From positions 1 through 64,000 of the forward strand of contig DDSQ01000084.1 of the NCBI GenBank assembly GCA_002343845.1: 64,000 nucleotides of DNA, read 5' to 3'. A model generated the notes under the pieces. It was not told where the DNA came from. It did no database searches and saw only the letters and a program-made list of their open reading frames with translations. The stretch's first letter is position 1. The number at the start of each line of letters is the position of its first letter. Source of the stretch: Planctomycetes bacterium UBA2386. GTDB lineage: Bacteria; Planctomycetota; UBA1135; UBA2386. This document shows positions 26,073 through 32,634 of the stretch, in pieces. A program made the translations under genes and the position numbers.

Positions 26073-27098
26073 TCACGCGCGGCGCGCTTCGAACACCCAG
26101 GTCTTGCGGTCGCCGACCTGGTCCTCGCGCACGTCGAAGCGAACCGGCAGGAAGCGGCCGATGACCTCGGCGTTGGTGGTCGTGTGCAGCGTCGGTTCGA
26201 CCGTGCGGAACGCGCCGCCGCCGGCGAGCGCCATCGGCAGCAACAGCTGATCGGCGAGGTGCGGGCCGACCGGCACGTCGGCCGCGCGCAGTTCTTCGAC
26301 GGCGTCGGCGGCGCGATGGGCGACTTCCTCGGCCGGCACGCCGCGTTCGCCGAGCGTCGTGACGACTTCGCCGCCGCCCTGGCGAGCCAGCACGACGACG
26401 AGCGCGTTGCCGGGTCCCGGCGAGCATCGATCGAGGATGCTGACCGCATCGGCGGCGATGCCGAGGCGCTCGCACAGCACGGTGCGTTCGCGCTGCGCCA
26501 CGTGCGACGGGATCTGCGAGGTGAGGATGCGCGCGTGGACGATCGGCGGCGTGTCGGCCTGCGTGCGTTCGAGCGCTTGCCAACTCGCCGGGGTGACCTC
26601 GGCGCGGACCTGGCCGCCGCCGGCTGGGAAGAAGCCGGCCATGCGCATGGTCAGCTGCAGCGGGGCGCCCATCGAACGAACCACCGGCGCGAACGCGTGC
26701 TCGAGGAAGTCGAAGGACGGCGCCAGCGGGTTGTGCGTGCCGCCGACCAACTCGACCGCCGAAGGTGCGTTCGCGTGCCACAGGGCAGGCAGGACCGTCT
26801 GCAAGACGAGCATGGCACTTCCGGCCGTGCTGATGACGAAGCGGTAGTTGCCCGGGGTCACCGAGCCCGGACGGAACGCCAGCCGCAGGCTGCCCATTTC
26901 GGCGCCTTCGACCGTGGCGGAGCACAGCTGCGCCGCGGCTTCCACCGCGGCGAGATGCTGGCGCTTCAGACCGGGCTTCTCGCGCCCGGCGCGGATGCGC
27001 TCGATGACGAAGCCATGGCCCGTCACCATCGCCAACGCGAGCGACGTGCGCAGCACCTGGCCACCGCCTTCGCCCATCGAACCATCGAGTCGGATCAT
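26073..27098 (-). CDS. rtcA: RNA 3'-terminal phosphate cyclase RtcA
   Basis: A 341-aa protein (E. coli RtcA has 338). The N terminus has the family signature DGSMGEGGGQVLRTSLAL; RAGREKPGLKRQHLAAV follows near residue 40. The C-terminal segment EPTLHTTTNAEVIGRFLPV carries the conserved His (about residue 305) that aligns with the nucleotidyl-acceptor His of the family. RtcA uses ATP to turn an RNA 3'-phosphate into a 2',3'-cyclic phosphate. It is the last gene of the RNA repair operon and starts 3 bases after the rtcB stop codon, so the two are probably translated together. Confidence 0.95.
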   Translation of the reverse strand: MIRLDGSMGEGGGQVLRTSLALAMVTGHGFVIERIRAGREKPGLKRQHLAAVEAAAQLCSATVEGAEMGSLRLAFRPGSVTPGNYRFVISTAGSAMLVLQTVLPALWHANAPSAVELVGGTHNPLAPSFDFLEHAFAPVVRSMGAPLQLTMRMAGFFPAGGGQVRAEVTPASWQALERTQADTPPIVHARILTSQIPSHVAQRERTVLCERLGIAADAVSILDRCSPGPGNALVVVLARQGGGEVVTTLGERGVPAEEVAHRAADAVEELRAADVPVGPHLADQLLLPMALAGGGAFRTVEPTLHTTTNAEVIGRFLPVRFDVREDQVGDRKTWVFEARRA

Positions 27099-27101
27099 CG
27101 C

Positions 27102-28322
27102 TCAACCCTTCACGCAGACGACCTGCTTCAACGTGTGCACGATCTCGACGAGGTCCTGCTGCGCCGCCATCACCGCGTCGATGTCCTTGTAGGCCATCGG
27201 CGTCTCGTCGATGACGGCGCCGTCCTTGCGGCACTCGACACCTTCGGTCGCGGCGATGTGGTCCTCGACCGTGAACCGACGGTGCGCCTCGCCGCGCGAC
27301 AACGCGCGACCGGCGCCGTGGCTGCACGACGAGAAGCTGTCGGGGTTGCCCTTGCCGCGCACGATGAACGACTTCGCGCCCATCGAGCCCGGGATGATGC
27401 CGAGCTCGCCGAGGCCGGCGCGCACCGCACCCTTGCGGGTCAGGAACACCGAAGCGCCGAAGTGCTCTTCCTGCGCCACGTAGTTGTGGTGGCAGTTCAC
27501 GGCCACCTCGCCGTGCGTGAACTTCGGCAAGTCGTCGTGCTGCTGCAGCGCGTTCAGGATCGACGCCATCATCAGGTCGCGGTTGGTGCGCGCGAACCGT
27601 TGTGCCCACGACACCGCGAACACGTAGTCGTCGAAGTGCTCGGCCCCTTCGGTGAAGTAGGCGAGGTCCTTGTCCGGCAGGTTGTGCAGGTGCAGGCGCA
27701 TGTCCTTCTTGGCGAGCTCGATGAAGTGCGTGCCGATGCGGTTGCCGACCCCGCGCGAACCGCTGTGCAGCATGATCCAGACGCGCTGTGCCTCGTCGAT
27801 GCAGACCTCGATGAAGTGGTTGCCGCCGCCGAGCGTGCCGAGGTGTTCGGCAGTCGAGCCGCGGTCGAGTCGCGGGTGCTTCTCGATGATCGCCTCGTAG
27901 TCGGGACGCAGCCGCTTCCAGGCGTTCTCGGCGAAGGCCGGCAGGTTGAACCACGCACCGCGGTCGCCCTTGCCACCGTGGTTGGTGCGGCCGTGCGGGA
28001 CGACGCGTTCGATCGTCGAGCGGATGCCCTTCAGGTTGTCCGGCAGGTCGCTGGCGGCCAGCGAAGTGCGCACGGCCATCATGCCGCAGCCGATGTCGAC
28101 GCCGACCGCGGCCGGGATGATCGCGCCGAGCGTCGGGATCACCGAGCCGACGGTGGCGCCGATGCCCCAGTGCACGTCGGGCATCGCGGCGACGTGGCCG
28201 TGCACGATCGGCAGCAGCGCCACGTTGCGGAGCTGCTTGATCGCGTTCGGATCGGCGAGCACGCCGCGGATCCACGCCTTGATGGGCGCGCGGCCGGTCT
28301 CGATGTGTTCGTGGAGAGTCAT
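27102..28322 (-). CDS. rtcB: RNA-splicing ligase RtcB
   Basis: A 406-aa protein (E. coli 408). Metal and GTP site residues are visible: VGVDIGCGM with Cys79, GGGNHFIE with His169, HSGSRGVG with His186, and SCSHGAGR with the guanylylated His335 (E. coli His337). RtcB joins 2',3'-cyclic phosphate or 3'-phosphate ends to 5'-OH ends using GTP and manganese. The start is the ATG at 28322 giving MTLHEHIETGR; further upstream codons run through the RNA array and are not conserved. The Y-RNA-like units lie immediately upstream on the same transcript, with the last unit ending about 26 bases before the start codon. No clear Shine-Dalgarno sequence is seen. Confidence 0.97.
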   Translation of the reverse strand: MTLHEHIETGRAPIKAWIRGVLADPNAIKQLRNVALLPIVHGHVAAMPDVHWGIGATVGSVIPTLGAIIPAAVGVDIGCGMMAVRTSLAASDLPDNLKGIRSTIERVVPHGRTNHGGKGDRGAWFNLPAFAENAWKRLRPDYEAIIEKHPRLDRGSTAEHLGTLGGGNHFIEVCIDEAQRVWIMLHSGSRGVGNRIGTHFIELAKKDMRLHLHNLPDKDLAYFTEGAEHFDDYVFAVSWAQRFARTNRDLMMASILNALQQHDDLPKFTHGEVAVNCHHNYVAQEEHFGASVFLTRKGAVRAGLGELGIIPGSMGAKSFIVRGKGNPDSFSSCSHGAGRALSRGEAHRRFTVEDHIAATEGVECRKDGAVIDETPMAYKDIDAVMAAQQDLVEIVHTLKQVVCVKG

Positions 28323-30974: not shown

Positions 30975-30987
30975 AGTACATAGCCCA

Positions 30988-32634
30988 ATGGCCAAGTCCA
31001 AGGGCTACACCGTCGTCAGCTTCCTCGGCGCCCAGCTCGACCGCGGTAGTGGCGACCGCTGGGGCTCCTGGCGACCGAACGTGGCGATGTGCCAGCACGA
31101 CGACCTGCTCGTCTCGCGTCTCGTGCTGATGACCGACCGCCGCTTCAACAAGCTCTACGACCGGGTCGTCGAGGACATCGCGCTGGTGTCGCCGGAGACC
31201 AAGGTCGAGCGCTGCGACTTCGGCGTGCGCGACCCGTGGGACTTCGAGCAGGTGTTCGATCGCCTCTACGGCATCAGCCAGGATCTCACGTTCGAACCGG
31301 GCAGCGACGACCTGCTGGTGCACATGACGACCGGCACGCACGTGGCGCAGATCTGCTTGTTCCTGCTGACGGAGACGCGCCACTTCCCGGCGCGGCTGCT
31401 GCAGACCGGGCCGCCGCCGGCGAACAAGAAGGTCCCTGGCACGTGGCAGATCATCGACCTCGACCTGTCGCGCTTCGACCGCATCGCCCGGCGCTTCGCG
31501 CAGGAACGCGCCGCTGCCCAGTCGCTGCTGAAGTCGGGCATCCGCACCCAGAGTCGAGCGTTCGAGGATCTGATCACGCGGGTCGAACGTGTGGCGCCGG
31601 TGTCGAAGGCGCCGAAGCTGCTGATGGGGCCGACCGGGGCCGGCAAGTCGCAGCTGGCGAAGCGCATCTACGAGCTGAAGAAGCAGCGCGGCCAGCTGAC
31701 GGGACCGTTCGTCGAGGTCAACTGCGCGACGATCCGCGGCGATGGTGCCCACTCGACGCTGTTCGGCCACAAGCGTGGTGCCTTCACCGGTGCCTTGCAG
31801 GACCGACCCGGTCTGCTGCGCGCGGCGGACGGTGGCCTGCTGTTCCTCGACGAGATCGGCGAACTCGGCCTCGACGAGCAGGCGATGCTGCTGCGCGCGC
31901 TCGAGGACAAGCGCTTCCTGCCGCTCGGCAGCGACAAGGACGTGCACAGCGACTTCCAGCTGATCGCCGGCACCAACCGCGAACTCGGCAGCGCCGTCGC
32001 CCGCGGCACGTTCCGTGAGGACCTGCTGGCGCGCATCAACCTGTGGACGTTCCGGCTGCCTGGTCTGCGCGAGCGCATCGAGGACCTCGAGCCGAACGTC
32101 GAGCACGAGCTCGAGCGCTGGTCCCAGCAGGTCGGTCGGCGCGTGCACTTCTCGGCCGAAGCGCGGCGGCGCTACCTCGACTTCGCGACGTCGGCCGAAG
32201 CGGCCTGGCGCGGCAACTTCCGCGACCTCAACGGCAGCATCACACGGCTGTGCACGTTGGCCGAGGGTGGCCGCATCACCGAGACCGACGTCGACGGCGA
32301 GATCGCGCGCTTGCGCAGCGACTGGCGGCGGGACGATCCGTTCGAGGCGGCGAGTGCCGACGGTGGCGAGAGCGCGCGCGGGGCCGAGGCCGACGATGAA
32401 CTGCTGTGCTCGGTGCTCGGCGACGAACGGCTCGAAGCGCTCGATCGCTTCGACCGTGTCCAGCTGGCCGAGGTCGTGCGCTGCTGCCGCACCACGCGTT
32501 CGCTGTCGGCTGCCGGCCGCGAACTGTTCGCGGTCACGCGGCAGAAGCGCAGCATCGCCAACGACGCCGATCGGCTGCGCAAGTACCTCGCGCGCTTCGG
32601 CCTCGACCACGCGGCGGTGACTGCTGGCGGCTGA
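30988..32634 (+). CDS. rtcR: Sigma-54 activator RtcR with CARF-type sensor domain
   Basis: A 548-aa protein, close to E. coli RtcR (532). The N-terminal domain (about 1-185) is the RtcR-type CARF fold: it begins GYTVVSFLGAQLDRG and contains the conserved stretch DDLLVHMTTGTHVAQIC. Then comes the AAA+ domain with Walker A GPTGAGKS (214-221), the sigma-54 contact loop GAFTGA (264-269) and Walker B LLFLDEIG with Asp288-Glu289. The C-terminal helices (SLSAAGRELFAVTRQKR) form the DNA-binding part. In the known system the CARF domain is thought to sense RNA ends with 2',3'-cyclic phosphate and relieves inhibition of the ATPase. It faces the sigma-54 promoter of the repair operon. Confidence 0.95.
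   Translation: MAKSKGYTVVSFLGAQLDRGSGDRWGSWRPNVAMCQHDDLLVSRLVLMTDRRFNKLYDRVVEDIALVSPETKVERCDFGVRDPWDFEQVFDRLYGISQDLTFEPGSDDLLVHMTTGTHVAQICLFLLTETRHFPARLLQTGPPPANKKVPGTWQIIDLDLSRFDRIARRFAQERAAAQSLLKSGIRTQSRAFEDLITRVERVAPVSKAPKLLMGPTGAGKSQLAKRIYELKKQRGQLTGPFVEVNCATIRGDGAHSTLFGHKRGAFTGALQDRPGLLRAADGGLLFLDEIGELGLDEQAMLLRALEDKRFLPLGSDKDVHSDFQLIAGTNRELGSAVARGTFREDLLARINLWTFRLPGLRERIEDLEPNVEHELERWSQQVGRRVHFSAEARRRYLDFATSAEAAWRGNFRDLNGSITRLCTLAEGGRITETDVDGEIARLRSDWRRDDPFEAASADGGESARGAEADDELLCSVLGDERLEALDRFDRVQLAEVVRCCRTTRSLSAAGRELFAVTRQKRSIANDADRLRKYLARFGLDHAAVTAGG

Follow-up and report, generated by a model that had tools for sequence, protein, structure and literature searches.

A stretch of 64 kb of DNA (in the following called the window) was found to contain an RNA repair block at positions 26073 to 32634, in which four small RNA units, U1 to U4, lie between the genes encoding Ro60 and the RNA ligase RtcB. 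All four units are built on the same stem, which is predicted to dock on Ro60. To judge by their sequences, they differ in what this stem bears: no head, an altered transfer RNA (tRNA) elbow, a permuted alanine-type tRNA and a minihelix of T-arm and acceptor, a combination that seems to be new. With a probability of roughly 60%, we regard the locus as an RNA repair operon whose Y RNA array likely loads Ro60 with four adaptors when tRNAs break. The different heads, whose order is kept in close relatives, are the most distinctive feature of the locus and had been missed in the preliminary description of this DNA.

Four Y-type RNA units on a common stem

The units were located with a covariance model of our own (R1), which was built on 25 units from other loci and on none from the window or from its three closest relatives, L001 to L003 (L-numbers designate Ro60-bearing loci of other genomes). 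On both strands of the 64 kb, R1 yielded exactly four matches, all on the strand of Ro60, with E values from 3e-17 to 4e-6. The first unit, U1 (28761..28824, minus strand like the others; 30.5 bits, E 3.8e-6), begins 9 nt past the Ro60 stop codon. It is short, with a small apical loop on top of the Ro-site stems and no tRNA part. It is followed by U2 (28618..28740; R1 match 28620-28737, 70.9 bits, E 3e-17), U3 (28462..28607; R1 match 28463-28606, 68.6 bits, E 1e-16; alignment A3 module 28519-28574) and U4 (28354..28451; R1 match 28356-28451, 48.0 bits, E 6e-11), and the array ends 32 nt before RtcB. Between the units lie pyrimidine-rich linkers (UUCUUCUUCCAU and similar; 28740-28760, 28608-28617 and 28452-28461), which, judged by eye, are possible processing sites.

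In every unit the outer stem ends with GA-AUGC / UCG-UC and the inner stem with GGGAC/GUCUC or similar. On these stems U2 carries a T-arm, whose loop TGCAAAC has a G at position 55, a 5-bp acceptor hairpin and a D-arm, whose loop AATTGCA lacks G18G19. The head of U3 consists of a T-arm, a 7-bp acceptor closed by its loop (CGGGUCC-ACUACAC-GGGCCCG), the dinucleotide UA, a D-arm and an extra hairpin. U4 has a T-arm and an 8-bp acceptor capped by a GCGA (GNRA) loop; its D-arm is absent. A head in which T-arm, acceptor and D-arm follow one another is arranged like a circularly permuted tRNA, which is the plan of YrlA. An anticodon arm is absent from all units, the Ro-type stem being found in its place, and ARAGORN detected no tRNA in the window. 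A candidate intron-bearing tRNA was rejected, as its match ran across two neighbouring units and consisted of the D-arm of one and the T-arm of the next. As far as can be predicted, U2 and U3 combine all attributes of a YrlA-like Y RNA (Ro-type basal stems, a tRNA-like head and the location beside Ro60); U4 does so without a D-arm. Deviating units were noticed at other loci. A Y-type unit of L039 (8295-8499) contains, in place of the tRNA head, 29 bases that are 90% like positions 1909-1937 of the Escherichia coli 23S ribosomal RNA (blastn E 1e-4), a single case that may be due to chance. Units on alphaproteobacterial plasmids (L187 6097, L188 5988 and L186 6048) have, by eye, kept the 5' strand of the D-arm, while the 3' strand is missing.

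The preliminary description had proposed to examine the array with the Y RNA models of Rfam and Infernal. At a permissive threshold YrlA was indeed returned three times (60.0, 44.7 and 37.4 bits; E 3.5e-13, 9.6e-9 and 1.2e-6), the 60-bit match being U2 and that with E 9.6e-9 being U4, though none of the units reached the gathering score of this family (RF02553), which is 69. With YrlA the window units share the basal Ro-type stem, T-arm, closed acceptor, D-arm and permuted order. In the YrlA consensus the acceptor comprises 6 bp and its loop 3 nt, whereas the acceptor of U3, which includes G3:U70, comprises 7 bp and its loop, with A73, 7 nt; moreover, U2 has G55 and U4 no D-arm. U1 resembles YrlB (RF02565) in being short, devoid of a tRNA part and first in its array, but the YrlB model gave a non-significant value on it (15.8 bits, E 3.6) and it does not qualify as a member. 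The minimum free energy fold of U1 contains both stems (z -2.7), and the single-sequence folds of U1 to U3, the last folded without its 3' outer strand, mostly agree with the parsed structures. Two results weigh against the assignment: at gathering scores Rfam gave no match in the entire window and thus missed all four units, and U4 folded as a single sequence does not form the Ro stems. On the whole, we consider it nearly certain that the four units are Y-type RNAs.

Arrays of such units beside Ro60 are common and also occur in cultured relatives, namely Adhaeretor mobilis (L050), Chthoniobacter flavus (L042) and Nannocystis (L059 and L078). In 80 related loci plus the window (81 Ro60 sources), R1 gave 301 matches at E <= 0.05, distributed over 77 sources, and the 300 listed are all located on the Ro60 strand; this figure should not be equated with the number of Y RNAs, since some of the acidobacterial matches fall on ordinary tRNA genes. 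The sources without a match are L033, L067 and L080, which end within approximately 200 bases of the Ro60 gene, and L075, which does not. A unit finder of our own disclosed one, two, three, four, five and six units downstream of Ro60 in 8, 28, 17, 10, 3 and 2 loci, respectively (68 loci with any unit); at a lower threshold it produced 36 raw antisense matches in the 80 loci. Parsing for the motif of D-arm units yielded 196 sense and no antisense units. Heads without a D-arm gave 19 parses in 19 of the 80 loci, again with none in antisense, several of these being misparsed D-bearing units. Four units are thus a high but not an unusual number, and the idea that they are a unique trait was rejected.

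The parallel to the enterobacterial rsr-yrlBA-rtcBA operon with four variant Y-like units, drawn in the preliminary description, stands, while the tandem of four as its distinguishing mark does not. According to PMC7790460, the operon of Salmonella likewise comprises a divergent RtcR with sigma-54, Ro60, a short and then a tRNA-like Y RNA, RtcB and RtcA. It has two units instead of four; three kinds of tRNA-like heads and a 121-aa open reading frame (ORF) between promoter and Ro60 are found in the window. The short-first order is paralleled by the name yrlBA: a short unit occupied the first place in 36 of 68 first units, compared to 9 of 114 later places. In L001 and L002 all four units recur in unchanged order and in L003 the first three, and for each of the 15 units of these loci and the window the best match was its positional counterpart in another of the four (15/15). 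The identities between the window and L001 amount to 95, 80, 95 and 88% for U1 to U4.

Alanine and elbow signatures of the heads

Signatures (G3:U70, 18-55 and CCA) were counted in 198 loci and the window. Twelve loci (duplicates of earlier ones or the ribosomal RNA yardstick), 17 tRNA loci and T-arms without an acceptor anchorable to the D-arm had been left out beforehand; near-identical viral contigs were kept. Held-out loci originated from other searches than the discovery set, and each was read on the Ro60 strand.

The sequence of U3 carries the alanine identity set G3:U70 and A73 on a 7-bp acceptor, as expected of an alanine tRNA mimic. With the acceptors of tRNA-Ala and transfer-messenger RNA (tmRNA), the latter of which is known to be alanylated (PMC3985003), it shares G1-C72, G2-C71, G3:U70 and A73. 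Among 17 tRNAs of the L001 genome (out of at least 24 tRNA matches), this combination occurred only in both tRNA-Ala; tRNA-Arg(TCT) has G3:U70, but C2-G71 and G73. G3:U70 was first noticed in 7-bp acceptors on reading the units of the 80 loci and then counted. In the discovery set, 27 of 50 units of the A73 class (A73 and an acceptor loop of at least 6 nt) had this pair, compared to 3 of 66 others. The held-out loci gave 10 of 24 versus 0 of 28 (p 1.2e-4), with G3:U70 in 4/8 A73 units of Planctomycetota, 2/2 of Acidobacteriota, 1/1 of plasmids and 3/4 of Pseudomonadota. When the loci were collapsed at 70% Ro60 identity, the G-U weight at 3:70 was 21.0 of 37 clusters, and at most 2.0 at each of the other six pairs. 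The heads themselves covary. In 29 alanine-type modules, 99.8% of the cells were paired and 10 of 16 pairs had changed on both sides (0/500 shuffles), including the pairs 4:69 to 7:66.

Several observations weigh against this signature. In the held-out set, G3:U70 was present in none of seven A73 units of Verrucomicrobiota and none of two of viral contigs, so that it is not universal and the viral contigs failed as a replication. The U3 of L002 lacks the pair, and in that of L003, which has G73, the pair occurs only within a closed stem with a GNRA cap. G-U also occurs at other pairs, e.g., at 4:69 in 12 of 66 other units. The constancy of 3:70 in the 29 modules is no evidence, because they were picked for G3:U70, and kinship was corrected only roughly, clusters under 60% leaving nothing testable. 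CCA after N73 was discarded as a mark of the alanine class, since it was found in 9 of 74 A73 units and 12 of 94 others. A free chargeable CCA end is not present in the primary sequence of U3, whose loop ACUACAC (ACCACAU at L001) closes the acceptor. Compared to tRNA-Ala and tmRNA, U3 moreover has neither an anticodon nor a tag reading frame, and no charging is known. The permuted tmRNA (RF04321) shows the same permuted order of acceptor strands, the Rfam match being weak (23.3 bits).

Residues 18 and 55 are in contact in tRNA. Among the 196 D-bearing units, 182 combined T55 with GG in the D-loop, 12 had G55 without GG, none G55 with GG, and two T55 without GG, of which L118 is real and L101 a misparse. 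Because the two residues touch in tRNA, this linkage represents tertiary covariation, and therefore the D-bearing heads likely fold as a tRNA elbow. Two of the G55 units speak against it: in L105 the D-arm was misparsed, and U2 has a D-loop (AATTGCA) that differs from the A18G19 form of the other units. Besides these two, nine D-loops have A-G at the place of G18G19 and that of L032 has A-C. What these data establish are the genes and the four units, how the units are conserved, their types of head and the G3:U70 and 18-55 signals.

A possible role of the array and its alternatives

Expression, Ro60 binding, processing and function of the units we infer from sequence and by analogy. According to PMC7790460, tRNA fragments activate RtcR. 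By analogy to Salmonella, RtcR of the window would be activated by broken tRNAs and, as the promoter site and the gene order suggest, would then transcribe with sigma-54 the 121-aa ORF, Ro60, U1 to U4, RtcB and RtcA. As the array begins 9 nt behind Ro60 and ends 32 nt ahead of RtcB, the units are probably excised from this transcript, and the conserved basal stem would dock each of them on Ro60. U1 may only gate Ro60, while U2, U3 and U4 would lead Ro60 to tRNA partners or stand in for such partners. U3 would offer the T-arm, G3:U70/A73 acceptor and D-arm of an alanine tRNA, permuted and without anticodon, U2 an altered elbow lacking the TruB target U55, and U4 only a T-arm/acceptor minihelix. 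As partners, PNPase and enzymes reading the top half of tRNA are the most likely candidates, possibly a separate one for each head. That Ro60 may use several adaptors at once is suggested by the known tethering of PNPase by Y RNA.

This tethering, described for the Rsr-Y RNA-PNPase machine of Deinococcus and Salmonella in PMC8394870, also leaves room for a simpler reading: all tRNA-bearing heads might be equivalent PNPase tethers, their copy number setting the dose and their differences being drift. An identity of just 80% between U2 and its L001 counterpart fits drift. On the other hand, drift is not expected to produce the same-place likeness in four loci or the short-first polarity, and the pair-specific and tertiary signals persist across phyla, so we regard equivalent tethers as rather unlikely. 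A similarly doubtful proposal is that the heads are decoys, each with a different target surface, absorbing nucleases or toxins that break tRNAs. Hughes et al. suggested that YrlA could competitively inhibit an anticodon nuclease (PMC7790460), and heads of the alanine, elbow and minihelix types would be suitable targets for enzymes recognizing the acceptor or the T-arm. However, the anticodon loop is absent in all units, and the same work reports that no YrlA fragments were observed in Salmonella. It is hardly credible that the units are functionless pieces of decayed tRNA genes trapped between Ro60 and RtcB. Several loci of acidobacteria and phages do have genuine tRNA arrays next to Ro60, but decay does not account for compensatory changes in the heads, nor for a permuted order with closed acceptor and conserved flanking stems, and no tRNA was detected in the window, in which R1 matched with E 3e-17 to 4e-6.

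In a bolder reading, which we consider improbable, U3-type units could be processed to a two-piece alanine tRNA that lacks an anticodon: RNase P and 3'-end enzymes would open the acceptor loop, CCA would be completed, AlaRS would charge the product via G3:U70, and Ro60 would carry the alanyl-tRNA mimic as a tmRNA-like device in RNA repair.

Bacterial Y RNAs are tRNA mimics. To our knowledge and according to literature searches, neither the tRNA that they imitate nor the reason for the presence of several in some bacteria is settled. Our searches found no work on alanine identity or on multi-unit Y RNA arrays, which the core Y RNA papers may nevertheless describe. What may therefore be new on the known YrlA plan is an array with several heads, together with the alanine pair and the altered elbow. 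As arrays are common and the heads recur in types, one of which has retained the identity pair of alanine, a vague likeness to tRNA becomes testable: U3 should contact AlaRS or RNase P, U2 should lose the TruB modification, and partners should differ by head. Such experiments could reveal a role of Ro60, the bacterial cousin of a human autoantigen, in tRNA repair.

Genes of the repair block and tRNA arrays at other loci

The gene order of the preliminary description was borne out by ORFs, Pfam, promoter scan and R1. RtcR lies on the plus strand; the sigma-54 site, the 121-aa ORF, Ro60, the RNA units, RtcB and RtcA are on the minus strand. RtcR (30988..32634; PF06956 E 2.6e-67, PF00158 E 1.2e-48) is a divergent sigma-54 activator with an N-terminal RtcR/CARF-type sensor domain, whose translation contains, as had been noted, the GAFTGA motif. 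A sigma-54 promoter, CTGGCACAGCCGATGCT (30862-30846), was predicted by a simple matrix scan. It has the top possible score, equalled in 0 of 200 shuffles, and is nearly identical to the site of L001, CTGGCACGGCCGATGCT. In 54 divergent RtcR-Ro60 gaps the best sigma-54 score had a median of 19.7, compared to 14.85 in shuffled gaps. The 121-aa ORF (30433..30798), to which no function is assigned, is lineage-restricted. As a protein it is conserved in four full-length homologues with 79-93% identity; the Pfam search of the window proteins gave no domain for it, and tblastn no match at L001 to L003. At L001 the distance between RtcR and Ro60 is about 220 bp.

Ro60/Rsr (518 aa; 28833..30389) matched vWA_Ro60 (PF25045, E 1.1e-16), while the TROVE model remained below the cut-off (E 0.017). 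A profile built from 16 relatives of Ro60 matched Rsr of Deinococcus radiodurans (2nvo) with E 2.1e-30 over residues 16-503 and also Ro60 9nen and 1yvp. D332, S334, S336, T407 and D431, presumably the residues of the metal-ion-dependent adhesion site (MIDAS) already pointed out, are invariant in 16 aligned Ro60s. From its sequence, the protein is a bacterial Ro60/Rsr with a predicted vWA domain with MIDAS and TROVE-type ring. Its closest relatives, with 95, 84 and 79% identity, come from metagenome-assembled genomes of Planctomycetota/Planctomycetia, which supports the planctomycete-like origin suggested before. RtcB, a 3'-phosphate RNA ligase of 406 aa (27102..28322; PF01139 E 2.4e-125), and RtcA, the RNA 3'-phosphate cyclase (26073..27098; PF01137 E 3.3e-76), matched as full-length domains. 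For RtcB the start at 28322 is more likely than that at 28427, because the longer reading runs through U4. With the divergent RtcR, the putative sigma-54 site, RtcB and RtcA, the locus has the makeup of an RtcR-controlled RNA repair operon.

At other Ro60 loci, genuine tRNA genes were encountered. At least four were present in 39 of 198 loci, almost all on the Ro60 strand. L054 has 30 tRNAs of 20 isotypes, L163 35 of 19 and L131 34 of 18; L131, L163 and others are phage loci. The arrays of L054, L045 and L024 extend over 1548-5862, 473-5488 and 636-5526, respectively. Acidobacterial and phage Ro60 may travel with a spare set of tRNAs. Eight same-strand tRNAs (12119-13537) also lie approximately 700 bp past RtcA at L050 of Adhaeretor mobilis, where the order is RtcR-Ro60-Y RNA-RtcB-RtcA.

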